Source: Eubacterium sp. (GTDB lineage: Bacteria; Bacillota; Clostridia; Lachnospirales; Lachnospiraceae). Taken from it: DNA of 40,618 bases. The position numbers were made by a program, and so were the translations under genes. Shown here piece by piece: positions 14,946 to 37,218 of this stretch. Position 1 is the stretch's first letter. Every line of letters begins with the position of its first letter. The DNA is taken from the NCBI GenBank assembly GCA_017539165.1, contig JAFYHN010000041.1, forward strand, positions 1 through 40,618, written 5' to 3'. A model generated the notes under the pieces. The model saw nothing but the letters and a program-made list of their open reading frames with translations. It was not told the origin of the DNA and did no database searches.

Positions 14946-15875
14946 TTATTCTTTACTTTGACAATATTCCTCCAGAGCATTCATATCAAGCTCCAACATC
15001 ACATGGCGTTCCTGTTTTTCTACCGGTGGTATAGTCATATAATCCTTATATAAGATCGATAAATAAGTATCATAGTCGGCTGATATGTTAACCTCGCGCC
15101 CTTCGAATTCTTTCTTGATACTCTTCGAAAATGGCTCTCTCTTATATAACTCACCAAAGAATTGTTTTGTTCCTGCAGGGATGGATACATATTCTGTTTC
15201 ATTATTTTTACATATTCCTGCCCATGATTCAGCCAGCTTAGTCCAAAACATAATTGGAACGATCATAAAAATACGACCTAAAAAGGCTCTTTTTCTCAAA
15301 TATTTATATATCTCATCAGTTTTACTGGATATCCTGATCAGATCCTCTTTATTTCTCTGGAATCTGATACATGACAGTATGTATCTGAATCCCATATAAC
15401 CAATACCCTGAATCTTTCTAAGTATCGGATTGTCAAAAACATTTTCTACGATAAAAACATCAATACAAAGTCCGCATTCTTCCTTTTCAGAATCCATGAT
15501 ATCTCTGGCTCTGATATCTTTAGTCATAATACGGATAAACGGAAAATCATAATCTTTGGATACTCCCGGAATATGGATCCAATACTTTGAACCAAAATGA
15601 TGAGAAAAATATTTTATAAACTTTTTCACATCTTTTCTGTAAATATTTATATCAATATCATCATCCCACGGAATAAACCCCTGATGACGAACAGCTCCTA
15701 AACATGATCCTCCACTCATCTGATATGGAATATCGTATCGGTCACAAACCTTTATGATATCATCCAAGAGGTACAGAAGCCTCTTCTGGACCTTTTTTAC
15801 ATCCTCATCAGTTAACTGAACAACCATGTCTTTATTATATATATTCTTTTTTAAAATACTTCCAACTGCAGTCAT
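14946..15875 (-). CDS. LicD-family phosphotransferase
   Basis: I start the protein at the ATG at 15875 (309 residues), 7 nt after GAGAGG; the longer frame would need an ATT start. It carries the LicD signature in full: KRLLYLLDDIIKVCDRYDIPY, then SGGSCLGAVRHQGFIPWDDDIDI, with the DDDID metal cluster of a nucleotidyltransferase-like fold. LicD proteins transfer phosphocholine, ribitol phosphate or other phospho-alditols from CDP precursors to cell-surface glycans. The TarI/IspD-like cytidylyltransferase immediately upstream (15907-16617) probably supplies the CDP donor. Ribitol-5-phosphate or a related polyol is favoured over choline because no choline kinase or LicB is visible; this is inference. 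Confidence 0.92.
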   Translation of the reverse strand: MTAVGSILKKNIYNKDMVVQLTDEDVKKVQKRLLYLLDDIIKVCDRYDIPYQMSGGSCLGAVRHQGFIPWDDDIDINIYRKDVKKFIKYFSHHFGSKYWIHIPGVSKDYDFPFIRIMTKDIRARDIMDSEKEECGLCIDVFIVENVFDNPILRKIQGIGYMGFRYILSCIRFQRNKEDLIRISSKTDEIYKYLRKRAFLGRIFMIVPIMFWTKLAESWAGICKNNETEYVSIPAGTKQFFGELYKREPFSKSIKKEFEGREVNISADYDTYLSILYKDYMTIPPVEKQERHVMLELDMNALEEYCQSKE

Positions 15876-15906
15876 CACATTTCCTCTCAACAATCAAGTA
15901 GAATAA

Positions 15907-16617
15907 TCACTTCAACCAATCTGATCTCTTAGCCAAAAGAAGTGCCTTAAATATATCAATATCTTCTACTGTTGTTAGTTTTATATTCTTTTCAGATCCT
16001 AAAGAAAAATGAACCTGTTCTCCCATCTCAATCATAAGTGTACATGAAGCAACCGAATTGGTTATTCCCGCATCCAGAGCACGTCTATGAAGGTCACATA
16101 TCTTATCCAGTCTGAAACCTTGCGGAGTCTGAGTTCTCTTTAGTCTGTCTCTTGGATAACTTCCAACCGACACTTTTCCGTCATCAGTCTGAAGCATAGC
16201 CTCTGCACATGGAATAACCGTGATAGCATTTCCGAACTTAACTGTCTTAACAAGACAGTCAGATATGATCTCAGCCGATACCATAGGGCGGATCGCATCA
16301 TGTATAAGAACGATATCATCCTTATCATAATGCTTTTCAAGCTCATAAACACCATTTCTTATAGATGCCTGACCATTGTCGCCACCATGAATAACATGTT
16401 TGAGCTTTGTTATATTGAACTGCTTAGCGTATGCCCAAAGAACATTTTCCCATCCTTCAATACATACGACAGCAATCGCATCTATCTCTGGATGATTCTG
16501 AAAAGCTTCCATAGTATATACTATTACCGGTTTTTCATTTACAGTTATAAACTGCTTTGGAATATCCTGTCCCATTCTCTGTCCGGATCCACCGGCTATT
16601 ATCAATGCAATATTCAT
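15907..16617 (-). CDS. IspD/TarI-like cytidylyltransferase (copy 1)
   Basis: The 236-residue protein has the IspD/TarI fold: ALIIAGGSGQRMGQDIPKQF (CTP-binding loop), PVIVYTMEAFQNHPEID, the GGDNGQASIRNG segment, VLIHDAIRPMV and the C-terminal SEKNIKLTTVEDIDIFKAL. Family members make CDP-ribitol (TarI) or 4-diphosphocytidyl-methylerythritol (IspD). The position directly before licD and in the same transcription direction favours a CDP-alditol for polymer decoration over isoprenoid synthesis. A second, divergent copy lies at 19066-19809. Neither TarJ-type reductase nor IspF is in the window. The ATG at 16617 has only a weak GGAAAG site. Confidence 0.85.
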   Translation of the reverse strand: MNIALIIAGGSGQRMGQDIPKQFITVNEKPVIVYTMEAFQNHPEIDAIAVVCIEGWENVLWAYAKQFNITKLKHVIHGGDNGQASIRNGVYELEKHYDKDDIVLIHDAIRPMVSAEIISDCLVKTVKFGNAITVIPCAEAMLQTDDGKVSVGSYPRDRLKRTQTPQGFRLDKICDLHRRALDAGITNSVASCTLMIEMGEQVHFSLGSEKNIKLTTVEDIDIFKALLLAKRSDWLK

Positions 16618-19065: not shown

Positions 19066-19809
19066 TTAATCTTCGCCATAGATCTGAGCATTCTCCTTCG
19101 CATCAAGAAGAGCTCTCATGCTGTAGAAGTCATCAGGTGTCGTAACCTTGATATTCTCCATCGGTCCATCGACAAGATGCATTTTAAGTCCTCTTGTCTG
19201 CATCAGGCTGCAGGAATCTATATAGTTGATATTGCCCTTTGCAACCTCTTCTTCTTCAGCTTCTAAAATCTCATCAAGCCAGAAACACTGCGGTGCTCTG
19301 GCAAGTCTTGTATTAGAGCGGTTAGGAATATGATCAATCTCGTTTGTGTCACTATCCTTAACCATAAGTACCGTCTCTTTTACCACAACACTTGTTATGG
19401 CTGATCCATACTTCTCAACGGAATCAACACAGTCTGAGATAAGTTTATCATTTATAAGCGGACGAACGCCATCATGGATAAGAACAACATGACGAGAACT
19501 TGAGTCCTGTTCTTTAGCCCATCTGTCTGCTGCTCGCAGTCCATTCACGATAGACATCTGTCCTGTCTCACCACCCGGCACTATATCCTTTACTTTAGTG
19601 ATATTGTATTTCACAATCAGTTCTTTCAGATAATCAATCCATTCAGGGACACATGATATACATATCGCATCAATCCTGCCTGACTGCTGAAAATGCTCTA
19701 GTGTATGAATAATTATTGGTTTGCTGTGAACAGACAGAAACTGTTTAGGAAGCCCCTTGGACTTCATGCGCTGTCCTATTCCTCCTGCAAAGATCACCGC
19801 TATATTCAT
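19066..19809 (-). CDS. IspD/TarI-like cytidylyltransferase (copy 2)
   Basis: The 247-residue protein is a paralogue of the one at 15907-16617. It shares AVIFAGGIGQRMKSKGLPKQF, PIIIHTLEHFQQSGRID, VPGGETGQMSIVNG, VLIHDGVRPLI and NIKVTTPDDFYSMRALL. The G-I-G-x-R-M loop and IHDGVRPLI are closer to TarI (ribitol-5-phosphate cytidylyltransferase) than to many IspD proteins, by eye. GGAG precedes the ATG at 19809. It lies between the YfhO fusion and the DUF4422 gene, in the ABC-type unit. Two copies in two units suggest two different CDP-linked phospho-alditols, or one housekeeping and one specialised enzyme. Confidence 0.85.
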   Translation of the reverse strand: MNIAVIFAGGIGQRMKSKGLPKQFLSVHSKPIIIHTLEHFQQSGRIDAICISCVPEWIDYLKELIVKYNITKVKDIVPGGETGQMSIVNGLRAADRWAKEQDSSSRHVVLIHDGVRPLINDKLISDCVDSVEKYGSAITSVVVKETVLMVKDSDTNEIDHIPNRSNTRLARAPQCFWLDEILEAEEEEVAKGNINYIDSCSLMQTRGLKMHLVDGPMENIKVTTPDDFYSMRALLDAKENAQIYGED

Positions 19810-19847: not shown

Positions 19848-22800
19848 TTACTTTAAGCCATCATCGGCCTTTATATCATCTCTGTATCTATCATAATCAA
19901 GACGTCTCACATGATACTCTATCTCTTCCAGAAGCTTTCTGTTTCTTGAGATAACATCAGCAAGAAGTCCGATAACATATATCATAACGCCCATCATGAT
20001 AAATGTACTACCCAGCACTAATGACTGGACGTGTCCGGAACCATGTCCCTGAAAGAAAAACACCAGGAATCTTATATCAATAACCAGACCCGCTATAAAT
20101 GGAATCGTTCCGAGTATTGAGAATGTCTTAAGTGGAAGATACATGAGATAAGCTCTAAGTATAGTCACCATAGACTTCTTTACATATCCGAACATACTGC
20201 TGAAGAGTCTTGATGGACGAAGTTCACCGTTTGTTCTGATCGGAACTGATGTCTGAGCTATCTTCTGTCTTCCTGCCTGAACTATTGTCTCCAGCGTATA
20301 TGTATATTCATTAGTTACATTCATACGGAGTGCTGCTTCTCTGCTATATGCACGGAAGCCACTCGGTGCATCAGGTATATCTGAGTTTGAGGCCTTACGA
20401 ACAACCCAGCTTCCAAAGTGCTGAAGTTTCTTCTTGAGTGGCGAGAAATGCTCAGTCTGATCTATAGGTCTCTCACCGATTACTATATCTGTCTTTCCTT
20501 CAATAATAGGACGAACGATAGTTTCAATATCTTCACCATTGTACTGGTTGTCTGCATCAGTATTAACTATGATGTCAGCACCATTTCTAAGACAAGCATC
20601 AAGACCAGCCATAAAACCATGAGCCAACCCTTTATTTCTTCGGAAGTTTACAACATAGTTAACTCCCCACTTCTTTGCAACCTCAACGGTATTATCCTTA
20701 CTTCCATCATTGATTATGAGATATTCGATTTCATCGATTCCATCAATATGTTTTGGAAGATCGTTAAGTGCTATCTCCAGGGTCTCTGCCTCATTAAAAC
20801 ATGGAATCTGAATTATTAGCTTCATAGATTTTTCTCTCCTGCTTATATTATTTGAACCATTTGCGGAAACTGCTTTCTGTTCAGTCTTGTCTTCCTCGAT
20901 GACATCTTCTTCGGTCTCATCCCTCTCACTATCCGCATAGCTTGATTTTTTACTTTCTTTTATACTGGACAAAATACTCAGAATAAATAATATAAATACA
21001 CTCACCGCAGTCACATATAAAAATGTCACCTGATGATATGCATTGTATTTAAATCTTACTGTGTGCTCTCCCTTACTCAGCTTAACTCCGTTAAATAGAT
21101 AGTTAACTTTCAGGAGATCTGTTTTCGCACCATCAACAAACACTTCCCAGTTCTCGTTCGAATACTCATTAAATACGAGTATTCTGTCACATGTCGAATT
21201 AACCGAAAGTGTTACATCATCCATCTCATCTCTTACAACAGATACTGTATCTTCATTCTTCAAAGGATTCTTATATCTGATATCCTTTAAAGCTTCGTCA
21301 TTAGAGAAAACAGCACCTTCAACATACGACTGACAGAGTTTTTTCATCACCTGCTTACTTGTCTCGATCCATTCGAACGAGGAAGCCAGATAAAATCTTG
21401 GTGCGAACTTATCAGTCTGGTAAAGAGTCATTCCATCTTCCGACTGAAGTACCATTTTGTAATCGGTACCCGCTACATTCTCCAGCTCTGAAGAACCTGA
21501 TATAAAGTCAACCCCGGCATACTGAAGGAGATTATAATTATCAACCTTAGATCCTCTCGTATCCGTCGCCGAAGCATAAACAGTATCATCTACGCGTCTC
21601 ATATAGTTTCCGATGTCATTGTTTGTATTTATCAGTCCATGAGCTTCTATACTCTTCAGTCCGTAATAAACATTTGCATTCGGAAACATTGACCATCCCG
21701 AATATGTATAAATACGTCCCTGTGAGTTTTTTTGCATATAAGCAATACTTTCTGTTGCCTCTGGAATTACCGAAGCCCCTTTAGGGATATACGTATTTCT
21801 TTTTTCGGAAAAATCCGTCATATTAAATATAACCGTTGCCAACAAAAGCAAATATGCAGTTTTTCTGATAAACTTAGCCTCGAAAAGGATCATAAGTTCC
21901 GTAGCTACAAATGTTATAACAGTAACAGCTATAACAACCTTAAAATCTCTTTCCCACGGAACTCTGGACTTTGCAAGATACATGCAGACTCCGACCAGAA
22001 TGTATACCGGCCATCGCATCCAGAACTTATTATAGCTTTCCCTATTCTCAACGATATCATTTATCTGAAGACTTGCAAGTATAACCGCAACAAACGGGAT
22101 CAGATTTATCATCCTTATCTTAAGCGACGTGCTTACAGCCGGAATATGCGTATATATCACATCCAACCAGTGAGTATAAGCAAATATAGAACATAATGCA
22201 AGTGCGATAAGCCAGTAAATCTGTTTCTTCTTTGTAAATCTATATATAACAAATGGAAGAATCACCAGAGCAACTATTCCAAAATAAGAACAGGACTCAT
22301 TTATATGTCGCGTCATTCCATCTCTGAAAAACGGAAGCAGATACGTCTTAATATATTTATGTTCAAGTGTGACTGTTGATAGTCCGCCCCTTTTTTCCAG
22401 GTATCCATTCTTAACCGCCATCCTGTATACATAGTAAACATATGCAGCACTTGCTATGATACCAAGGACAAATGCCAGGATAAATCTAATTCCTACCATG
22501 ATTACGTCCTTAAAATTCTTATACATTAAGATAGCCATTATAACTATATATGGTACAAAAAGATAGAAGCCATATACCGCAAATGCAGGCATTCCCGCAA
22601 CGCACATCATATATACTATCAGCGACATCTTAAATATATCCGACGGCCGCTTCTCTTCCAGAAGCCTTACTCCCACTGCAAAAAGAAATGGAAGCCACAT
22701 CATTACATCTGTATGTGCCCAATAGTTCCACATTGCCATAGCAGATGACAAAGCATACGAAACACCACCTGCGATTACAGCAACATCACGAAGCTTCAGT

Positions 22801-23195
22801 CTCTTCAAAAATGTACACATCCCGAAATACGCAACGCTGTACTTGATCAGTGAATTCAGGAATATAGCAATATTTAATGGCAGGAGATATACATAATTTA
22901 CAGGATTAAGAAAGTAATTATAGCTTTCCGGGTAACCAAATGCATTGTAATTATTCCAGAAAGATCTGTCTCCCTGATAAAACTTTCTGAAAATCTCCGG
23001 AAGGTGTGAGTCTATCGGATCCGTTAAGCTTGGTCCGCTTACATCAATCCCCCAGACATTCCAGGGTTTAACTGTGTACATAAAATTTGTTGGCGAAAGT
23101 ATATATTCACCCTTCCATATCGGAAGATAAAGAATCCCGATCGTAATTAGCCAGAATAAAATAATCCTTTTGTTTTTCTTCAGTATCTCTCTCAT
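19848..23195 (-). CDS. YfhO-like membrane glycosyltransferase fused to a CsbB-like GT2
   Basis: The 1115-residue protein joins two usually separate enzymes. Residues 1-about 745 form a YfhO-family GT-C transferase: many membrane helices, an early acidic loop VSGPSLTDPIDSHLPE, and a large outward domain followed by a last helix near 720-745. A charged linker (ERDETEEDVIEEDKTEQ) leads to a GT2 domain from residue 791: LIIQIPCFNEAETLE, INDGSKDNT, DxD in VNTDADNQYNGED, then two or three C-terminal helices as in CsbB/DPM synthases. CsbB-type enzymes make undecaprenyl-phosphate sugar inside; YfhO transfers it outside. An internal ATG at 20825 has its own AGGAGAG site 9 nt upstream, so the GT2 part may also be made alone. 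AAGGAAAG precedes the main ATG. Confidence 0.9.
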   Translation of the reverse strand: MREILKKNKRIILFWLITIGILYLPIWKGEYILSPTNFMYTVKPWNVWGIDVSGPSLTDPIDSHLPEIFRKFYQGDRSFWNNYNAFGYPESYNYFLNPVNYVYLLPLNIAIFLNSLIKYSVAYFGMCTFLKRLKLRDVAVIAGGVSYALSSAMAMWNYWAHTDVMMWLPFLFAVGVRLLEEKRPSDIFKMSLIVYMMCVAGMPAFAVYGFYLFVPYIVIMAILMYKNFKDVIMVGIRFILAFVLGIIASAAYVYYVYRMAVKNGYLEKRGGLSTVTLEHKYIKTYLLPFFRDGMTRHINESCSYFGIVALVILPFVIYRFTKKKQIYWLIALALCSIFAYTHWLDVIYTHIPAVSTSLKIRMINLIPFVAVILASLQINDIVENRESYNKFWMRWPVYILVGVCMYLAKSRVPWERDFKVVIAVTVITFVATELMILFEAKFIRKTAYLLLLATVIFNMTDFSEKRNTYIPKGASVIPEATESIAYMQKNSQGRIYTYSGWSMFPNANVYYGLKSIEAHGLINTNNDIGNYMRRVDDTVYASATDTRGSKVDNYNLLQYAGVDFISGSSELENVAGTDYKMVLQSEDGMTLYQTDKFAPRFYLASSFEWIETSKQVMKKLCQSYVEGAVFSNDEALKDIRYKNPLKNEDTVSVVRDEMDDVTLSVNSTCDRILVFNEYSNENWEVFVDGAKTDLLKVNYLFNGVKLSKGEHTVRFKYNAYHQVTFLYVTAVSVFILFILSILSSIKESKKSSYADSERDETEEDVIEEDKTEQKAVSANGSNNISRREKSMKLIIQIPCFNEAETLEIALNDLPKHIDGIDEIEYLIINDGSKDNTVEVAKKWGVNYVVNFRRNKGLAHGFMAGLDACLRNGADIIVNTDADNQYNGEDIETIVRPIIEGKTDIVIGERPIDQTEHFSPLKKKLQHFGSWVVRKASNSDIPDAPSGFRAYSREAALRMNVTNEYTYTLETIVQAGRQKIAQTSVPIRTNGELRPSRLFSSMFGYVKKSMVTILRAYLMYLPLKTFSILGTIPFIAGLVIDIRFLVFFFQGHGSGHVQSLVLGSTFIMMGVMIYVIGLLADVISRNRKLLEEIEYHVRRLDYDRYRDDIKADDGLK

Positions 23196-23230: not shown

Positions 23231-26200
23231 TTACTTGTCTATCGTCACCTCAGTATCAAGTATCATATCCTTATACAGAATACAGATCTCATACTCGCCG
23301 TCTTCGATAAGGTCTCTCGGTATACGTGTTCTGAAACCAGCGAATTCAACGTCAGTTTCATCTTTAAATGTCTCAGCCACGTCCTTTCTGTGGACCTTGC
23401 TTGTCGAAACCTTGTAAGCACGTCCCTCCTTCTTAAGAAGAAGGTCAACATACATATTCATGTTATCCTGAGATCTATGCTCGATAGCCCAGCCCTCGAT
23501 GTATATACACCAGCTCGCTATTCTTATATCTATTCCTCCCATGAGTTTTTCATCTTCATGGTACTGAGAAATGTCAGCAATCTCTTCTAAGTCGTATGTC
23601 TTCTGCTTATCATAGTTATATCTGAAATCACAATCTATCTGTGACAGATTCTCATTATAATATGGATCATACCCTCTGAACTGCGGATGCCTGTCATAAA
23701 GCTTGTTCTGCTCGTCCATCAGACGTCTGAACTTCGCCTTATCCATGTTATCATCACCTCGGCTAAGTGACTCGTGATGATAAAGCACAGCATCATTTCT
23801 GATCACATTGAAGTATCCCTTCTCTATCAACTTGAAGCAAAGGTCTATATCGTTATAGGCTACTGCAAGATCCTCCTCGAATCCACCTATCTCATTGAAC
23901 TTAGAAGTCTTTAGAAGAAGGCATGCAGCCGTAACTGCCAGGCAGTCGAAATCCAGTTTATTTCTGTTAAAGTAATAGCTATCTTCATCATCCATTTTGG
24001 CAAATTCATGCACAGGACCCGACTCAATATTTATTACTCCTGCATGCTGAATCAGTGTTGTATCTGGATACAGAAGTTTTGCTCCAACCGCTCCAACATG
24101 CGGAAGTTCCGCCTGTCCAAGCATCCTCTCCAGCCACTCATCTGATATTATCTCTATATCATCATTCAGGAACAGTAGATAATCTCCGTTTGCATTTGCC
24201 GCGCCAAGATTACACATGTATGAAAAGTTGAAATCCTTCTTCTCATAGATATACTTGAAGCCGTACTCTTTTGACAGCTTCTCGTATTCAGCTCTGTTCT
24301 CATCATTACTTCCGTTATCTACTACAACGAATTCGACTTTTTTGTAATCAGTCTTTTCAACAAATGAACTTATACACTGTCTGAGTATTCCCGGATTATC
24401 CTTCGACGGAATGATAACACTTACAAGTGAATCTCCTGAAGGAATATACTTTACTCTGTACTGATATATATCACTTATCCACTCAAGTTTTCCGTGAAGT
24501 CCGCGACGTGCAAGAGCTTCCTCTTTGCACTTTCTTGTAGCATCTTTAACATATTCCTTAGCTTCCGGATTTGATGCTGTAGACTCCTGTCTCTGTCTCC
24601 AGTGATACAGTACCTTTGGAACATGACCAACCTTACTGCTTTTCTCAGTAAATCTGAGTGTCAGATCATAATCCTGGCAGCCATCGAATTCTTTCCTGCA
24701 TCCACCTATCTCACGGATGATATCTGTTTTATATACGCCAAGATGAGAAGTATACATATAAGACATCAGCGTATCAGGCGACCAGTCAGGCTTGAAGAAT
24801 GGTGACTGTCTGTTCTTTCCATCATCATCAATCTTATCTTCATCACTGTAGACAAAATCGATTTCTCTATCTTCATTAAGTTTCTTAACCACTTCATAAA
24901 GCGTAAAAGGAGCCAGAGTATCATCGCAATCCATAAATGCAACATACTCGCCTCTAACCATTTCAAGTCCCGTATTCGTACATTCTGAGATTCTTCCATT
25001 TTCTTTTCTGTACTTCACACGGATTTTTAAACTTTTCCATCTGTATTTATTTAGAGTTTTTCTTACATTTTCATACGTAGAATTATCATCTACCAGTATC
25101 AGTTCCCAGTTCTTGTAATACTGATTTCTAACAGATTCAATACATGGAATCAGGTGTCTGTCTTCCACGTTGTAAACTGGAACCACCACAGAAATCATAG
25201 GATTATAGTCAAACTTAGCGCTATGATCATACTCTGCTTCCAAAGACTCGATCCATGGCTCATATACACCGTCTGTCTCTTCAAGAAGTTCCTGATATCT
25301 TGTCTTTTCGATACCCTTTTCTATCAGCTCAGCATGTTTTTGTTCTTCACGCATCTGCTTCTTGTGTTCATAACGTCCCTTTATCTTCTTCGGTCCTATC
25401 TTACACAGAAGGTAGATTCCATAAAACGGATTCAGGATACTACGCTTGATTTTAGACATCTTTGTAGAAAGATTTATGATCTGAGAATCTCTCTCAATTA
25501 TTCCCTCATTAAGATGAAGTATATTCACATTCAATTCTTCGACATGATTCTCAAGATCATCCAAGTTTGTTCTGAGCGAAGATATATACTCATCATTCTG
25601 TTTAACTATCGTTTGGAAATTCGAAATGTGCGTATTCAGAACTGATATATTTTCATTCAGATTCTCGATATGAGCATCTTTTTCATGAATAAGCTGCGTC
25701 GTATCTTCTATATATTTATCAACGACTATCTCTGATCTCTTATACTTCTCAGGATAGTTGTAGCGTACATTTTCACCGAATACGTATTCCTGGAACCCGT
25801 ATTCCATTCCATCATAAAGCTTTATATCTTCCTCAGAGAAACCGAAGAGTTTCAGAAACTCATCCCTCTCTATACGGGCGCTGTACTGATGAACCTCGTC
25901 TTCGTAATAGTACTTAAGAGTCCTATACTTAAGAAAATCCATCGGAATAGGGAATTCAAAAACCCACTCATAATCAATACAATATATCTTGTCTTCCACA
26001 GATATGAAGTTATCATATATGGAATCAAAATTAGATATTCTGACTGCATCTTTTCCAACAAGAGCTTCTGTTCCTTCTTTGCCGAATACATTTGCAAAAT
26101 CATCTGTCATCTCGAACTTTGAAATGTATTCTTCTTTATAACTGTAAATGACATCAATCGCATTCTTCAATTTATCTACAATGCTGTCCATTTCTTCTGA

Positions 26201-26473
26201 AGCAGCATCGATCGGCTCAAGCACTGGAGTTCCCTTGACGAACTTGAATATGATGTCTTCGCCTGATTCTTCATACGGAATAGGCATGATATTCTTATAT
26301 AGTCCCTCGACAGTTTTAAAGTTTGCCTTGATAGCATCCATCTGATACTTCGCTTTAGGAACTATCGGATGCTTTACTACAAACTTTCTGTCTCCATCCT
26401 GTCTGATGAACGTAGCCAGCTGATACTGAGGTTTTCTTATTGAGTTGTACTTTGCATATAGTAATTCACTCAT
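23231..26473 (-). CDS. Large kinase-like / coiled-coil / double GT2 glycosyltransferase
   Basis: The 1080-residue protein has five parts. Residues 1-about 250 look like an APH/LPS-kinase-type fold: FVVK (Lys34), a catalytic-loop-like SNFDSIYDNF (Asp150/Asp154, Asn155) and CIDYEWV (Asp167). Residues about 262-342 are a coiled coil with N/I/L heptads. Residues about 426-660 are a first GT-A domain (ISVVVPVYNVEDRHL, DCDD at 515-518, QDYDLTLR at about 600-607). Residues about 682-930 form a second GT-A domain (SVIIPSKDNPG, NDD at 770-772, and YNDIDLCFKL with YHHESLSRG, like rhamnosyltransferases of the WsaF/RgpF type). Residues about 980-1080 are a beta-rich domain with YIEGWAIEH. Its ATG shares one base with the methyltransferase stop (TAATG). 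Kinase activity is unproven. Confidence 0.88.
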   Translation of the reverse strand: MSELLYAKYNSIRKPQYQLATFIRQDGDRKFVVKHPIVPKAKYQMDAIKANFKTVEGLYKNIMPIPYEESGEDIIFKFVKGTPVLEPIDAASEEMDSIVDKLKNAIDVIYSYKEEYISKFEMTDDFANVFGKEGTEALVGKDAVRISNFDSIYDNFISVEDKIYCIDYEWVFEFPIPMDFLKYRTLKYYYEDEVHQYSARIERDEFLKLFGFSEEDIKLYDGMEYGFQEYVFGENVRYNYPEKYKRSEIVVDKYIEDTTQLIHEKDAHIENLNENISVLNTHISNFQTIVKQNDEYISSLRTNLDDLENHVEELNVNILHLNEGIIERDSQIINLSTKMSKIKRSILNPFYGIYLLCKIGPKKIKGRYEHKKQMREEQKHAELIEKGIEKTRYQELLEETDGVYEPWIESLEAEYDHSAKFDYNPMISVVVPVYNVEDRHLIPCIESVRNQYYKNWELILVDDNSTYENVRKTLNKYRWKSLKIRVKYRKENGRISECTNTGLEMVRGEYVAFMDCDDTLAPFTLYEVVKKLNEDREIDFVYSDEDKIDDDGKNRQSPFFKPDWSPDTLMSYMYTSHLGVYKTDIIREIGGCRKEFDGCQDYDLTLRFTEKSSKVGHVPKVLYHWRQRQESTASNPEAKEYVKDATRKCKEEALARRGLHGKLEWISDIYQYRVKYIPSGDSLVSVIIPSKDNPGILRQCISSFVEKTDYKKVEFVVVDNGSNDENRAEYEKLSKEYGFKYIYEKKDFNFSYMCNLGAANANGDYLLFLNDDIEIISDEWLERMLGQAELPHVGAVGAKLLYPDTTLIQHAGVINIESGPVHEFAKMDDEDSYYFNRNKLDFDCLAVTAACLLLKTSKFNEIGGFEEDLAVAYNDIDLCFKLIEKGYFNVIRNDAVLYHHESLSRGDDNMDKAKFRRLMDEQNKLYDRHPQFRGYDPYYNENLSQIDCDFRYNYDKQKTYDLEEIADISQYHEDEKLMGGIDIRIASWCIYIEGWAIEHRSQDNMNMYVDLLLKKEGRAYKVSTSKVHRKDVAETFKDETDVEFAGFRTRIPRDLIEDGEYEICILYKDMILDTEVTIDK

Positions 26474-27234
26474 TATTCGCTTTTACTCCCGATCATCAGA
26501 AATGAATTCGCAAACTGCTCATACATTCCGTCTTCTATCAGAGAATCGATAGTTCTGTTTTCATTGAACACAACGTATTTTCCTTCTACATAGTTTGGAT
26601 ATACGTCTCTTATATCGCCTGCCTTTGGAAGTCTCTGTTCAGAGTAGATTTCCATAGGAAGGATGTAATTCGGCACTGGATAATAAACTCTGAAGTCTTT
26701 ATCTGCACCGGAATATTTTATTGCACTAACAAGACTGCTTCTCGAGTACTTTTCCTGATCTATATCCTGTGACCATCTGGATGTTCCGTATTTATTATCA
26801 CACGCAACTATTATCGTTCCGCCAGGTTTCAGGAAACCGATAGCTTTCTTTATCAGATCAAACGATGGACTTCCGATGACTGTCACATAATCAAATCCTC
26901 CCGGATATTTCTCAGACAGTTCGCATAGACCGGATGTTAGGATCGTAAGGTTCGGATTCTTTCCAAATCTTTCCTTCAATACTTCAGCCTTCTGCTCATC
27001 CTCTTCGTATGAAACCACCTTAGAAACCCGCTCAAGAAAAAGTCCCGTAAGGGCACCGCATTCAGCTCCTATTTCAAGTAGAGTAGCGTCCTTATGGAAT
27101 TCATACCAGTCCAGAAGATTTCTTCGAATGTTGGAGAGGTTGTATATATACTCCCACTCACTATTTTCGGTGAGAAATTCTTCGAAATCGTTTTCAGTTT
27201 TTACGAGGTTGAGAAGGTTGTCGTAATGGTCCAT
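26473..27234 (-). CDS. SAM-dependent methyltransferase coupled to the large glycosyltransferase
   Basis: I start this protein at the ATG at 27234 (253 residues), preceded by AAAGGAA at normal spacing. The longer frame to 27285 would translate part of an intergenic repeat. The class I Rossmann fold is seen in LLEIGAECGALTGLFLE (motif I), VVSYEEDEQKAEVL (acidic motif II), FDYVTVIGSP and FLKPGGTIIVACDNKYG. DNKYG resembles the ENRFG-type motif of methyltransferases found next to polysaccharide glycosyltransferases. YPVPNYILPMEIYSEQRLP is a second conserved-looking stretch. It is translationally coupled to the kinase-like glycosyltransferase. A glycan sugar or terminal phosphate is a plausible target, which is inference. 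Confidence 0.87.
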   Translation of the reverse strand: MDHYDNLLNLVKTENDFEEFLTENSEWEYIYNLSNIRRNLLDWYEFHKDATLLEIGAECGALTGLFLERVSKVVSYEEDEQKAEVLKERFGKNPNLTILTSGLCELSEKYPGGFDYVTVIGSPSFDLIKKAIGFLKPGGTIIVACDNKYGTSRWSQDIDQEKYSRSSLVSAIKYSGADKDFRVYYPVPNYILPMEIYSEQRLPKAGDIRDVYPNYVEGKYVVFNENRTIDSLIEDGMYEQFANSFLMIGSKSE

Positions 27235-27260
27235 TATAGATTCCTTTTTTGATTGTGTAT

Positions 27261-27369
27261 GTTCACAAGGTACCTGCACATTCATTCGGTGAGTACGCTT
27301 TCGCCCTTTGCCTGTGCTAAGCTAGCTTGTTCCAGTATAGCTGTTCACAAGGTACCTGCACATTCATTC
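27261..27369. repeat. Pair of 27-bp direct repeats
   Basis: The plus strand reads GTTCACAAGGTACCTGCACA followed by TTCATTC at 27261-27287, and exactly the same 27 bp at 27343-27369. The flanks then diverge slightly (GGTGAGTACG versus TGCGAGTACG). The spacing is 82 bp. The first 12 bp recur inverted at the end of wzt. Confidence 0.9.
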
Positions 27370-27528
27370 TGCGAGTACGCCCCTTCGGGGCTCTACTGCT
27401 TGCTTCGCAAGCACTCGCATCATGTAGGTGCAGGCGAGCTCGTTCCACTCGCCCCGTGCCCGGTCAAGCTCTCACCTCACTATGCAAGCATGTTCGGTGA
27501 GGTCTTAACCGCTCACTACCTTGTGAAC
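27343..27528. repeat. Nested palindromic element with 12-bp terminal inverted repeats
   Basis: GTTCACAAGGTA (27343-27354) and TACCTTGTGAAC (27517-27528) are perfect inverted repeats, the right one inside the last codons of wzt. Within lie CCTGCAC/GTGCAGG, then a junction closed by GCGAGT (27371-27376) and ACTCGC (27413-27418). The junction holds two perfect hairpins, GCCCC-TTC-GGGGC and GCTTGC-TTC-GCAAGC. GGCGAG/CTCGCC and CCTCAC/GTGAGG hairpins follow. It is much more GC-rich than its surroundings and has no open frame. It resembles REP/MITE-type elements. No copy elsewhere in the window was seen. Confidence 0.8.
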
Positions 27529-28944
27529 GGTTACCTTTGAATTCATGTCATAAAACCCTACAGTATTCTTGTTTGATACTACTGTTATATTTACTACGTC
27601 GTATAGTCTGTCATGGGCTACGAGTTCTCCATCGACGAAGCTTGTACAGCTCATGGATAGCAGGTATTCTCCACCCTGGAGGTTCATCTCCTGTTCGAAC
27701 TCTGCCACGTATTCTTCGCCTGCATGAGCTTTTCCTATGCTGGCTTTTTCATACATGGTATTGGTACCAGTTATGTCCTGTCCTTTAAGGGTTTTAAAGG
27801 TGTATGTAAATATCGGATCATCGATATCTTCGTTAAACTTAACTTTTGACATCAGTTTAAATCTATCACCCTTGATAAGTGTCGATGTCAGATTACCGAA
27901 CTCATCTACTATCGCAAAGTCAACAAGCTTAGCCTTCATATCTCCATACTCATCGAGGTTAGGATTTATGTCAAAATGAGACTTCCATGTTTCATCCTTT
28001 GGAAAGTTATTTATCAGTTCCGTTGTATCTATGCTTGCAGAAGTCTTTTCCTTACTTCTATCTTTTTCAACTGTTGTTTTATTAAGTTCAGATTTTTTAT
28101 CTGAAAATTTCTTATTCTGTTTTTTCTTACCTTTTCCAGACGCTGCGAGCTGTTCTTTCTCTCGCTCTTTCTCTTCAATCTCTTCGATGGTCATTCCGGT
28201 CATAAGCTTCTTGTACTTGTTGATAATATCAATCGGAGTACCTTCACCAACCTTCGTACCATGGTCAAGTAGAATAGCTTTATCACAGTATTTCTCTATA
28301 CTTGATAGGTCATGGCTAACGAAAAGAATTGTCTTTCCATTCGCCTTGAAATCTTCGAATTTCTTAAAACATTTAGCCTGGAAGAAAACGTCTCCTACAG
28401 AGAGTGCCTCATCGACTATGAGTATCTCAGGATCAATATTGATTGCCACTGCAAATGCCAATCTGACAAACATACCTGAAGAATAAGTCTTAACAGGCTG
28501 ATGCACAAAATCTCCGATATCGGCAAATGCCAAAATATCATCCATTTTTTCATCTATCTCTTCCCTGCTGAATCCTATCATAGAACCATTAAGGTATACA
28601 TTTTCAATACCGGTATACTCCGGATTAAAACCAGCTCCCAGCTCAAGAAGTGCTGAGATTCTTCCGTTGATATTTACTTCTCCGGCACTAGGATTCAGAA
28701 CTCCTGTGATGATCTTAAGGATTGTCGACTTACCGGCACCATTCGTTCCAATGATTCCGACACATTCCCCCTTCTTCACATCAAATGAAACATTTCGAAG
28801 CGCAAAATGCTCTTTATGTTTTTTCTGTTTCTTACCACCCAGAGCTTCCCAAAAACGGTCCTTTGGATTGTCATACAGTTTATAAAGTTTTGAGACGTCA
28901 TTTATCTTAATTGCTATTTCGTCTGTCATTTTTTTCTCTTTCAT
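27505..28944 (-). CDS. Wzt-type ABC exporter ATPase with C-terminal glycan-binding domain
   Basis: The 479-residue protein has an N-terminal ABC ATPase: Walker A GTNGAGKST near residues 66-74, signature VKTYSSGMFVRLAFA, and Walker B ILIVDEALSVGDVFF with the H-loop VSHDLSSIEK. A lysine-rich linker (about 255-310) leads to a C-terminal beta domain (about 335-479; VDFAIVDEFGNLTSTLIKGD and FTYTFKTLKGQDITGTNT), the Wzt_C fold. In E. coli O9a-type systems this domain binds the modified non-reducing end of the exported glycan. With the permease at 28988 it should export an undecaprenyl-linked polymer. The second ATG (28929) is a possible alternative start. The last residues, VTVHKVVSG, overlap the palindromic repeat. 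Confidence 0.93.
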   Translation of the reverse strand: MKEKKMTDEIAIKINDVSKLYKLYDNPKDRFWEALGGKKQKKHKEHFALRNVSFDVKKGECVGIIGTNGAGKSTILKIITGVLNPSAGEVNINGRISALLELGAGFNPEYTGIENVYLNGSMIGFSREEIDEKMDDILAFADIGDFVHQPVKTYSSGMFVRLAFAVAINIDPEILIVDEALSVGDVFFQAKCFKKFEDFKANGKTILFVSHDLSSIEKYCDKAILLDHGTKVGEGTPIDIINKYKKLMTGMTIEEIEEKEREKEQLAASGKGKKKQNKKFSDKKSELNKTTVEKDRSKEKTSASIDTTELINNFPKDETWKSHFDINPNLDEYGDMKAKLVDFAIVDEFGNLTSTLIKGDRFKLMSKVKFNEDIDDPIFTYTFKTLKGQDITGTNTMYEKASIGKAHAGEEYVAEFEQEMNLQGGEYLLSMSCTSFVDGELVAHDRLYDVVNITVVSNKNTVGFYDMNSKVTVHKVVSG

Positions 28945-30480: not shown

Positions 30481-31071
30481 TTAGTTTAATCCTCTCTCCT
30501 CTTTGTATGCTGCGATTCCGCCCCATACTTTATCTTTATCAGAAAGTGTAAGATCTGCTTCTGTCATTCCTTCAGGCATAGGCCATTCAACTCCGATTTC
30601 AGGATCTGACCAAAGAAGTCCCCCCTCATCGTTTGGATGATAAAAGTCTGTACATTTATAGCAGAACTCGGCATAATCAGAAAGTACGATAAATCCGTGT
30701 GCAAAGTTCTTAGGTATCATAAACTGTTTCTTGTTCTCTGCCGAAAGTCTTACTCCATACCACTTTCCAAATGTCTTGCTGTCAGGTCTGAGGTCAACTG
30801 CTACGTCAAATACCTCTCCATTTACTACACGAACAAGCTTATCCTGAGGGAATTCCTTCTGGAAATGAAGTCCTCTGAGAACACCCTTCTTTGAAGCACT
30901 CTGATTATCCTGAACGAATACATAATCCATTCCAGCTTCCTTCATATCATTCTCATTATATGTCTCCATAAAATATCCACGGTCATCACCAAACACTGTA
31001 GGTGTAATAACCTTAAGTCCTTCTATCTCAACTCCATCTACCATACATGATTCAACATTGATCTTTCCCAT
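30481..31071 (-). CDS. rfbC: RfbC-like dTDP-4-dehydrorhamnose 3,5-epimerase family protein
   Basis: The 196-residue cupin protein has the RfbC pattern: GVLRGLHFQKE (active-site histidine), VVNGEVFDVAVDLRPDSKTFGKW, FMIPKNFAHGFIVLSDYAEFCYKCTDFYHP, and LLWSDPEIGVEWP near the end. It epimerises C3 and C5 of a 4-keto-6-deoxy nucleotide sugar. rfbA, rfbB and rfbD are not in the window, while CDP-sugar genes are close by. It could therefore serve dTDP-L-rhamnose with partners elsewhere, or act as the CDP-sugar 5-epimerase of an ascarylose-like route. AAGGAGA precedes the ATG at good spacing. Confidence 0.88.
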   Translation of the reverse strand: MGKINVESCMVDGVEIEGLKVITPTVFGDDRGYFMETYNENDMKEAGMDYVFVQDNQSASKKGVLRGLHFQKEFPQDKLVRVVNGEVFDVAVDLRPDSKTFGKWYGVRLSAENKKQFMIPKNFAHGFIVLSDYAEFCYKCTDFYHPNDEGGLLWSDPEIGVEWPMPEGMTEADLTLSDKDKVWGGIAAYKEERGLN

Positions 31072-33782: not shown

Positions 33783-34730
33783 TTAGGGATTGGCCTTAGC
33801 CCACTCAACAGTCTTTCTTATTCCCTCTTCAAATGTAGTAGACGGCTTGTATCCTGTATCGTTTACAAGCTCACTTATATCAGCAACCAGATGCATTACC
33901 TGATTGTCATTGTATTCACGTTCGCCTATTCCAACTTCCAGTGAAGGATCGATTGCATCACGAATTGCATATATATACTCCTTCATAAGTCTTGGCTCTC
34001 CTGAACCGATCGTATAAGCCTTGCGGTCCACTCCCGACTCAGCTATGGCGATAAATGCCTTCGCACAATCTTCTGCATAAATATAGTCCCAAACCTGCTC
34101 AGCAGGAGTAAACTGCATTCTCTCACCTTTGAGCATGGAACGAACTGCAGCCATGACCATAGTATAATCGTTGTCTCCAGGACCGTAGCAGCTGAGAATT
34201 CTTCCCCAGTTATGCTTCATTCCAAGATTTCTGCATTCAAGCTGTGTAAGCTTACATGCAGCAAGCTTAGCTATTCCGTATCCTGTGACAGGATCCTTCG
34301 GAAGACTATCTGTTAACTTGCTTTCTGTAAAACCAAACTCTGCCTGTGATCCGGCACCGACAAATGTCTTACATCCTGCTTCGTATGCAAGATGAACTGC
34401 ATCGATTGCTGCTCGTATGTTCTCCTCCTGCTTAGGAGCATCATTTCTTCCTGTTCCAAAAGTATATCCCCATCCAAAATGGAAGAGAGTATCATGTTCC
34501 CAACCAAGTTTATCTCTGAGGCTTGGAAGCTCCCAAAGACTGCATTCTACTATATTTAATTTTCCATAATTCTTATTATCAGAAGAGCTCACCTTGAATG
34601 CTTCGAGATTTCTCATTTTCTCTGACATAGGGCGCACTATGGCCGTAACATTTACCCCTTTTTCAAGAAGGAGTTTTACAACCTGTGATCCTATCATTCC
34701 GGTTGCTCCGGTTACTATCGCACTTTTCAT
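33783..34730 (-). CDS. NAD(P)-dependent SDR, candidate CDP-4-keto-3,6-dideoxyhexose reductase or epimerase
   Basis: The 315-residue extended SDR begins SAIVTGATGMIGSQVVKLL, has the FVGAGSQAEFG strand and the catalytic YGIAK (Y-x3-K), then NWGRILSCYGPGDNDYTMV. It begins within the rfbH stop (TAATG overlap), directly after the three genes that lead to a CDP-4-keto-3,6-dideoxy sugar. In known pathways this position is filled by the 4-ketoreductase that gives CDP-abequose, paratose or ascarylose, and tyvelose needs one more epimerase. The stereochemistry of the product cannot be read from the sequence. A different SDR lies at 7232-8281. Confidence 0.8.
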   Translation of the reverse strand: MKSAIVTGATGMIGSQVVKLLLEKGVNVTAIVRPMSEKMRNLEAFKVSSSDNKNYGKLNIVECSLWELPSLRDKLGWEHDTLFHFGWGYTFGTGRNDAPKQEENIRAAIDAVHLAYEAGCKTFVGAGSQAEFGFTESKLTDSLPKDPVTGYGIAKLAACKLTQLECRNLGMKHNWGRILSCYGPGDNDYTMVMAAVRSMLKGERMQFTPAEQVWDYIYAEDCAKAFIAIAESGVDRKAYTIGSGEPRLMKEYIYAIRDAIDPSLEVGIGEREYNDNQVMHLVADISELVNDTGYKPSTTFEEGIRKTVEWAKANP

Positions 34731-36079
34731 TAACGGTTAACCGCCTCTCTGATAACCTTAACCATGTAGTTCAGCTTATCTTCTGTCATGCCTGGATATA
34801 CACCGATCCAGAAGCTGTTCTGCATGATGAAATTCGTTACGTCAAGGTCTCCAACTACTCTATAAGCATCAGTTCCCCTTATTGAATCAAAGCAAGGATG
34901 AAGTGTCAGATTACCACTGAAGAGAAGTCTTGTCTGTACATTCTTGCTCTCGATATACTTTGTTACTTCATTACGATCAAGACCTGCCTCAGGCTTTACG
35001 CTGATGAGGAATCCAAACCATGATGGCTCTGAATTCTCAGTTGCCTCAGGAAGGATCAGCTTATCTGAAAGGTCAGCAAGATTCTCACGAAGATACTTCC
35101 AGTTAGCCTTTCTTCTCTCAATAAATGTAGGGAACTTCTTAAGCTGTTCAACTCCTACTGCAGCCTGCATATCAGTTACCTTGAGGTTATATCCAAGGTG
35201 GCTGTATACATATTTATGGTCATATCCTGCAGGAAGCTCACCATACTGTCCGTCAAATCTATGTCCACAGAAGTTATCTCTTCCTGATGGGCATACACAG
35301 TCTCGTCCCCAGTCACGGAAGCTCTTTATTATTTTGTTAAGAAGTGGATTGTCAGTATAAACACATCCTCCTTCTCCCATTGTCATGTGATGTGGTGGAT
35401 AGAAACTACTTGTTCCGATATCTCCCCATGTTCCAGAAAACTTAGTAACACCATCGATAGTGTACTTAGTTCCAAGTGCATCACAGTTATCCTCTATGAG
35501 CCAAAGGTTATTCTTATCACAGAATTTCTTTACTGCCTTTAAGTCAAATGGATTACCCAGTGTATGAGCTATCATAACAGCCTTAGTTTTATCGGAAAGG
35601 GCTGCATCAAGCTTTGATGGATCTATATTGTATTCAGGAAGCTTAACATCTACAAATACAGGAACTGCACCATACTGAAGAATAGGCGCAACTGTTGTAG
35701 GGAATCCTGCAGCAACTGTAATTACCTCATCTCCGCGCTTAACCTGTCTGTCCCCAAGAAGTGGAGATGTAAGAGTCATAAATGCAATCAGGTTTGCAGA
35801 TGAACCACTGTTTACAAGATTAGCAAATCTCACACCGATCCACTCAGCAAAGTTCTTCTCGAACTCATCTGAGAATCTTCCTGTTGTTAACCAGAAATCA
35901 AGAGTAGCATCTGTAAGAGAAAGCATTTCCTTCTCATCATATACTCTAGAAGCATAAGATATACGATCTCCCTCTTCGAACTTCTTCTCCTGCTCAGGCT
36001 TCTTGAACTGATTATAGTACTCAGCAACAAGACCTTTTATTTCATCACGAGCTTCCTGCTCATTATTCCATTTAGACAT
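34730..36079 (-). CDS. rfbH: RfbH/DdhC: CDP-4-keto-6-deoxy-D-glucose 3-dehydrase (E1)
   Basis: The 449-residue protein is an aspartate-aminotransferase-fold enzyme adapted to remove the C3 hydroxyl. The usual PLP lysine is replaced by histidine in SSFYPPHHMTMGEGG, as in E1. The [2Fe-2S] ligand set of E1 is kept: Cys in IEDNCDALG, then CVC and C seven residues later in RDCVCPSGRDNFCGHRF. The first interval is 61 residues here, against 57 as I recall for the Yersinia enzyme, because of a small loop insertion. GYDHKYVYSHLGYNLKVTDMQAA is also diagnostic. The enzyme needs an NADH-dependent reductase (DdhD/E3), which is not in this window. AAAGGAG precedes the ATG. Confidence 0.95.
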   Translation of the reverse strand: MSKWNNEQEARDEIKGLVAEYYNQFKKPEQEKKFEEGDRISYASRVYDEKEMLSLTDATLDFWLTTGRFSDEFEKNFAEWIGVRFANLVNSGSSANLIAFMTLTSPLLGDRQVKRGDEVITVAAGFPTTVAPILQYGAVPVFVDVKLPEYNIDPSKLDAALSDKTKAVMIAHTLGNPFDLKAVKKFCDKNNLWLIEDNCDALGTKYTIDGVTKFSGTWGDIGTSSFYPPHHMTMGEGGCVYTDNPLLNKIIKSFRDWGRDCVCPSGRDNFCGHRFDGQYGELPAGYDHKYVYSHLGYNLKVTDMQAAVGVEQLKKFPTFIERRKANWKYLRENLADLSDKLILPEATENSEPSWFGFLISVKPEAGLDRNEVTKYIESKNVQTRLLFSGNLTLHPCFDSIRGTDAYRVVGDLDVTNFIMQNSFWIGVYPGMTEDKLNYMVKVIREAVNR

Positions 36080-36120
36080 ATATATACTCCTTTATATTTT
36101 TCATATTCTCTCTACTATGA

Positions 36121-37218
36121 TTACTTGAAGAATTCTGCTATCTCTGCATCCATCTCTTCAGCAACTTTATCAGGCTCTGCAAGTCTTCTCTTAGAAAACT
36201 GCACAACCATCTCTACGGCTTTATCTATATTCCATACTGGATTCCAGCCAAATACATTCTTAACCAACGAACAGTCAAGCTTAAGGAAGTTGGCCTCATG
36301 AGGGCCTCCGTCATGCTTGTTGATCCATGTGATCTTTTTACTTGCATCAGTAGGATTATCGGAATCCGTGCCATAGTTATTCCATGAGTCACAGAACTTA
36401 TCTACTATATCACCTGTAGTTACACAGTCATAATCATCAGGTCCAACATTATAGAAACCTGCCTTTGTTTTATCTTCATACTGCCCCTTAGCAATTGTAA
36501 GATATATATTAAGAGGTTCAAGAACGTGCTGATATGGTCTTGTTGAATATGGGTTTCTTACAATGATCACTTCGTTCTTTTCAGCTGCTCTTACGCAATC
36601 AGGAATGATTCTGTCAGGAGCATAGTCACCACCACCGATTACATTTCCTGCACGCGCAGTTGATACAGCAACATCCATATCGCAATAAAATGAGTTGATA
36701 TAGCTATGAGTTACAAGTTCTGAACATGACTTTGAGTTAGAGTAAGGATCATAGCCATCCAGAGGCTCATTCTCACGATAACCCCAGCACCACTCATTAT
36801 TCTTATAAACCTTATCTGTTGTGACATTCAGGAACGATTTAACAGATGGAGTCTGTCTGACTGCTTCACAGATATTTACCGTACCCATAACATTTGTCTC
36901 GTACGTTCCCACAGGATCCTTATAAGACTCACGAACAATAGGCTGAGCTGCAAGATGAAGCACTATCTCAGGCTGCACCTCTTTAAATACACGCATCAGC
37001 TTCTCACGATCCCTGATATCTCCAACTATATGATTAATCCTGTCCGCAATCCCAGCCTCATTAAAAAGACTTGGTGTTGTAGGCGGTTCAAGCGAATATC
37101 CGGTCACCTCAGCACCAGCACCTATAAGAATCTGGCAGAGCCAGCTTCCCTTAAAGCCCGTGTGTCCCGTAACCAGAACACGCTTGCCACTAAAAAAGGA
37201 TAGGTCTTTTTTATTCAT
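36121..37218 (-). CDS. rfbG: RfbG: CDP-glucose 4,6-dehydratase
   Basis: The 365-residue SDR opens with KRVLVTGHTGFKGSWLCQIL, the typical TGHTGFKGSW of CDP-glucose 4,6-dehydratases, followed by GYSLEPPTTPSLF, HLAAQPIVRESYKDP, NVTTDKVYKN and YDPYSNSKSCSE (catalytic Y-x3-K). It oxidises C4 and removes the C6 hydroxyl of CDP-glucose using bound NAD. It follows rfbF and precedes rfbH in the order of the reactions. A purine-rich GAAGGAAGAATAGAGG lies before the ATG at 37218. The upstream gap to rfbF (about 150 bp) holds a long inverted repeat. Confidence 0.95.
   Translation of the reverse strand: MNKKDLSFFSGKRVLVTGHTGFKGSWLCQILIGAGAEVTGYSLEPPTTPSLFNEAGIADRINHIVGDIRDREKLMRVFKEVQPEIVLHLAAQPIVRESYKDPVGTYETNVMGTVNICEAVRQTPSVKSFLNVTTDKVYKNNEWCWGYRENEPLDGYDPYSNSKSCSELVTHSYINSFYCDMDVAVSTARAGNVIGGGDYAPDRIIPDCVRAAEKNEVIIVRNPYSTRPYQHVLEPLNIYLTIAKGQYEDKTKAGFYNVGPDDYDCVTTGDIVDKFCDSWNNYGTDSDNPTDASKKITWINKHDGGPHEANFLKLDCSLVKNVFGWNPVWNIDKAVEMVVQFSKRRLAEPDKVAEEMDAEIAEFFK

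Follow-up and report, generated by a model that had tools for sequence, protein, structure and literature searches.

The window analysed here is a 40,618-nucleotide stretch of Eubacterium sp. (Lachnospiraceae; assembly GCA_017539165.1, contig JAFYHN010000041.1, positions 1 to 40,618). It contains a group of minus-strand genes in the order Wzm, Wzt, a methyltransferase (MT) gene, and a gene whose product joins an aminoglycoside phosphotransferase (APH)-like kinase domain (K), a coiled coil (CC) and two glycosyltransferase (GT) domains (K-CC-GT-GT; Table 1). The MT and K-CC-GT-GT genes have a single base in common, within TAATG. A sequence-only reading of the window had described this one-base coupling, the adjoining Wzt with its C-terminal domain (Wzt_C) and the two GT domains behind the coil, and all three hold on re-reading of the overlap and by the Pfam matches and the DxDD and NxD motifs. 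The two genes probably encode a terminator-polymerase of the Klebsiella pneumoniae O7 type for a surface glycan exported by an ABC transporter, in which a ruler and phosphate capping would act before export.

Table 1. Features of the locus, with the evidence for each; residue numbers are those of the K-CC-GT-GT protein.
Feature	Coordinates	Strand	Evidence
K-CC-GT-GT protein, 1080 residues	23231-26473	(-)	
APH-fold kinase domain, residues 1-246	25736..26473	(-)	
Kinase residues	K34 26372-26374; D150 26024-26026; N155 26009-26011; D167 25973-25975	(-)	
Coiled coil, candidate ruler, about residues 249-348	25430..25729	(-)	AF2 helix 249-344; heptad score
First GT2 domain (421-639)	24557..25213	(-)	Pfam PF00535; DxDD motif D515-C-D517-D518
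Second GT2 domain (683-904)	23762..24427	(-)	Pfam PF10111; NxD motif N770-D-D772
C-terminal module (992-1066), no Pfam name	23276..23500	(-)	own hidden Markov model (HMM)
MT, class I S-adenosylmethionine (SAM) methyltransferase, divergent	26473..27285	(-)	Pfam RrnaAD 5e-8; family HMM
Wzt, ABC ATPase + C-terminal domain	27505..28944	(-)	Pfam PF00005; PF14524 E = 5e-40
Wzm, ABC permease, N-terminal extension of ~225 residues	28988..30448	(-)	Pfam PF01061
RmlC, dTDP-4-dehydrorhamnose 3,5-epimerase (sugar donor)	30481..31071	(-)	TIGR01221 above cut-off

According to the accessible text of Kelly et al. 2024 (PMC11231755), ORF6 of K. pneumoniae O7 carries in one chain an MT, an unannotated AmiN-like kinase, an Ig-like module, a coiled coil and two GT2 domains, and places methylphosphate on the terminal rhamnose by means of an active kinase. 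The authors list orthologs from alpha- and gammaproteobacteria and from cyanobacteria, as well as homologous genes from Gluconacetobacter and Methanoculleus; their main text nowhere uses the words Gram-positive or Firmicutes. The comparison with O7 was made through a Pseudomonas asturiensis plasmid protein (L195, 1457 aa) as a stand-in for ORF6. This protein has the six SAM-contact residues published for the O7 MT (Y28, Y66, G91, G93, E112 and Y158; PMC11231755) at their published numbers, as well as an Asp at 443, close to position 441 of the publication, and is therefore taken to be an O7-type ortholog. The family HMMs recognize it at 2e-50 for MT and at 4e-8 for K over the whole sequence (best single stretch 3e-5), and the MT HMM recognizes a Citrobacter braakii plasmid protein at 3e-48. 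The coil-GT-GT part of the window protein matches the P. asturiensis protein at 33% over 755 positions (E = 1e-106), and the window MT matches its O7-type MT at E = 4e-17. By these sequence comparisons the MT and GT domains, and by profile the kinase, are homologous to the O7-type terminator.

Residues 1-246 of the K-CC-GT-GT protein have no Pfam match, and their predicted AF2 model matches the kinase fold of aminoglycoside phosphotransferases, AmiN and LicA in VIA-align structure comparisons; one further VIA-align list was filled by methyltransferase matches and barely probed the kinase half. The kinase-like fold proposed in the sequence-only reading for the N-terminal region (residues 1-260) is thereby borne out, the structure matches being kinases and not an unrelated fold. 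Model and alignment place a Lys, a D-x4-N motif and a metal Asp in the window domain. These three kinase groups share the fold with K but have no significant sequence similarity to it, and their operon context differs. It is very unlikely that K is a non-catalytic relative that merely binds or positions the chain, as the Lys, the catalytic Asp and the metal Asn and Asp are retained in 60-62 of 62 K sequences and the O7 homologue is described as an active kinase (PMC11231755, accessible text). What such a relative would explain is the lack of significant sequence matches to known kinases: the window kinase alone has no match among PDB sequences, the K profile draws from them ten kinase sequences, nine of them JAK1, at non-significant E values of 0.14-0.2, and a Pfam search with 60 K homologues reached APH with one member alone (E 0.0023). 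A phage collection yielded three unannotated records from human faecal samples, possibly bacterial DNA.

The coiled coil placed behind the kinase at 262-342 in the earlier reading is recovered with wider limits, as a single AF2 helix (249-344) and by a home-made heptad score (249-348), for which WbdD served as positive control. WbdD scores 9.75, with segments between 487 and 599, and the window protein 9.65; the score also flags window residues 88-122, within the modelled kinase, and WbdD residues 24-51, within its methyltransferase. With repeats excluded, 89 of 133 K proteins have a coil behind K by this score, including 44 of the 52 with a GT domain behind K. The K-to-GT spacer in these 52 spans 109-378 residues and is 165 in 13 of them; this natural range, together with the many fused and split versions, makes the ruler idea testable across species. 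The motifs of the two GT domains, DxDD and NxD, are those published for GT1 and GT2 of ORF6, respectively (PMC11231755, accessible text).

The locus had first been read as a rearrangement of WbdD parts, a view that does not survive the kinase comparison. WbdD does have the same order of MT, kinase and coil, the same type of transporter and a similar heptad score, but the K profile aligns to WbdD of Escherichia coli HS with an hhalign probability of 0.3 on a 0-100 scale, the K HMM has no match in it, the MT HMM reaches just E 0.21, and BLAST of the K protein against WbdD gives matches only at E above 4. The O7 authors likewise describe the O7 and WbdD kinases as quite different in sequence and structure (PMC11231755, accessible text), and membership of the WbdD family, with parts rearranged, is extremely improbable. 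WbdD, whose kinase domain has a Src-like structure, is not among the 50 structure matches listed by VIA-align for the window K; this absence does not speak against a structural likeness and is not used as evidence.

The K domain is widespread in the Lachnospiraceae and is linked to the exporter. It occurs in 74 of 150 family genomes, the window's own included; among the other 149, K is found in 73 and Wzt_C in 93, with Wzt_C in 70 of the 73 genomes with K versus 23 of the 76 without it (Fisher p = 2e-18, uncorrected for kinship). After removal of six repeats, all from one set of 80 fetched loci, 132 distinct K loci are left; Wzt_C lies within the fetched stretch of 118 of them and MT within that of 131, and in the locus listings Wzt_C, MT and K mostly adjoin one another. 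The co-occurrence of the MT, fusion and Wzt_C genes anticipated in the sequence-only reading is thus seen at both levels, and the fusion and MT are not widespread in loci lacking Wzt_C. This linkage argues against a kinase directed at a target other than the chain end, such as a sugar within the chain, a lipid-linked primer, or choline or another small alcohol, in which case it would serve decoration and not termination. The target of the homologous O7 enzyme is the terminal rhamnose (PMC11231755, accessible text), and the placement of a coil between kinase and polymerase suits a ruler; decoration is accordingly a rather improbable role.

Several observations weigh against an O7-type terminator-polymerase. 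By BLAST alone the window and P. asturiensis kinases match only at E 0.1, and the K HMM is not significant on the C. braakii protein (E 0.23) despite its clearly related MT. The heptad score finds no coil behind K in 44 of the 133 K proteins and finds a coil segment somewhere in 46 of 200 random open reading frames (ORFs) of the fetched loci, so the score is suggestive only and the AF2 helix is the better evidence for the window. The GT pair varies, since among 59 relatives with at least 450 residues behind K, some repeats included, a regular expression finds DxDD in 19 and NxD in 51. Fourteen of the 132 K loci have no Wzt_C in the fetched stretch, some through a contig end. The genome also contains another MT-K module (L197:6844-10593, contig C14), set within a 1249-residue protein of the order HAD, unassigned region, MT, K, cytidylyltransferase. 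Its neighbours are LicD and an HMGL-like gene, Wzt_C was not found in that 19-kb stretch, and the module therefore does not by itself imply termination. Finally, the window MT is without three of the six published SAM-contact positions, so that methylation is doubtful. As a separate observation, the middle part of the 1249-residue protein has clear relatives (E below 1e-30) in three of the 149 other family genomes.

From the domains, the predicted fold, the conserved catalytic residues, the homology to the O7 type and the gene linkage, we infer the following course for the O7-type reading. The GT2 pair would extend a lipid-linked chain of predicted sugars at the membrane, while the coiled coil would hold the kinase and its docked MT a set distance away. 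On arrival of the chain end at the kinase, its non-reducing sugar would be phosphorylated by the APH-fold domain, and this phosphate may then be methylated by the MT; capping would halt growth, and the Wzt C-terminal domain would then recognize the capped end for export by Wzm/Wzt. The proposal that polymerization, length measurement and capping reside in one Gram-positive polypeptide stands in part, in that kinase, coil and GTs form one chain, and fails for the MT, which is encoded by a separate gene. So far, it is in Gram-negative O antigens that chain-length control by a coil-ruler terminator has been elucidated; should the O7-type reading be true, about half of the genomes sampled from this family of gut bacteria (74/150) encode the same logic with a kinase, and the predicted chemical mark is a surface glycan whose non-reducing end bears phosphate or methylphosphate.

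At O7 SAM positions 28, 66, 91, 93, 112 and 158 the window MT has E, Y, G, E, E and a gap; the equivalents of Y66, G91 and E112 are kept and Y28, G93 (E75) and Y158 are gone. Of 128 distinct MTs in which positions 66, 91 and 95 are aligned, 28 are missing the Gly at 93, an aromatic residue at 158, or both, the last being the case in 21. The divergent MTs retain Y48, R54, W60, G73, G77, P203, P205 and N260 at 80-100% and so are not simply decaying (30 divergent versus 108 intact rows, including repeats and one row without a kinase neighbour, L146:14249). The middle Gly is absent from other methyltransferases too, for example WbdD, which reads GCAQG. A quick kinase tree (138 rows, 132 different; weak support on 61 of 129 inner branches), using a slightly wider definition of divergence (34/137), requires at least 11 changes for the divergent MT state (25-34 in 50 shuffles) and 20 for the fused versus split MT (36-46 in shuffles). 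MT is fused to K in 29 of 62 homologues, and MT, K and GT lie on one chain in 10 relatives. The divergent MTs may have repeatedly and independently lost SAM-contact and lid residues beside a near-invariant kinase, such that the cap would be a phosphate, bare or cyclic, with the former MT persisting as a scaffold for the kinase; we regard this as a tentative and on balance doubtful idea. If true, surface-glycan length in Gram-positive gut bacteria would commonly be set by phosphate capping combined with a coil ruler, which could explain phosphate ends like the cyclophosphoryl-rhamnose on a Clostridioides difficile S-layer glycan.

The C-terminal module of the fusion is present in 34 ORFs in the first 61 loci (own HMM) and recurs in other double-GT proteins of the fetched loci, where it lies close to the N-terminus and is at times present twice. 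The Wzm extension has a hydrophobic start and a long polar stretch ahead of the permease core; more than 150 residues precede the core in 11 of 122 Wzm ORFs of the fetched loci, and the extension is possibly an outside-facing domain of the transporter. The gene adjoining the fusion (19848-23195) encodes a YfhO-like membrane protein joined to a GT2 domain. Two IspD-like cytidylyltransferases (15907-16617 and 19066-19809), both below NCBIfam cut-offs, lie on either side of a DUF4422 gene and a protein with weak likeness to Wzz, and LicD (14946-15893) lies a little further out. A CDP-glucose 4,6-dehydratase and RfbH (34730-37218), both above NCBIfam cut-offs, suggest synthesis of what we take to be a CDP-3,6-dideoxyhexose of the abequose or paratose type in a Gram-positive glycan locus.

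The literature searched, at the level of titles and the start of abstracts and with most subscription papers outside its coverage, holds no account of an MT-kinase-coil system in Lachnospiraceae or other Gram-positives, nor of its spread in Lachnospiraceae, of repeated MT fusion and splitting, or of a divergent MT beside a conserved kinase. The accessible part of the WbdD authors' report mentions comparable assembly systems for Gram-positive O-linked glycans. WbdD of E. coli O9a and K. pneumoniae O3 resembles the window system in its MT-kinase-coil order, in having a Wzt with a C-terminal domain as partner and in a phosphate-type cap, which is predicted for the window, but its kinase is unrelated by sequence and its polymerase, WbdA, is separate, whereas that of the window is fused. 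WsaE of the Geobacillus stearothermophilus S-layer glycan, likened by description, is also Gram-positive and unites a terminator and two GTs in one protein served by a Wzm/Wzt exporter; its terminator is a 2-O-methyltransferase, the accessible text names no kinase and leaves the length-measuring factor open (PMC2943079), and the window chain instead carries a kinase and no MT. Also likened by description is the S-layer glycan of C. difficile SLCT-11, a clostridial glycan for which an ABC exporter is predicted and whose non-reducing end bears phosphate as 2,3-cyclophosphoryl-rhamnose; the accessible text assigns no capping enzyme to it (PMC6254364).

Capping, ruler and polymerase in one chain are already known from Klebsiella O7. 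With ORF6, compared through the Pseudomonas protein, the window shares a homologous MT, an APH-like kinase without a Pfam match, a coil, a GT2 domain with DxDD followed by one with NxD, adjoining Wzm and Wzt genes and an rml gene nearby. It differs in its Gram-positive host, in an MT diverged at three SAM-contact positions, in leaving no room for an Ig-like module (K ends at 246 and the coil starts at 249) and in an MT encoded by a separate, overlapping gene and not N-terminal in the same chain; for this last reason the pair is classed as a split O7-type variant and not as a strict member. The system is real and well supported, and is a variant of an already characterized kind.
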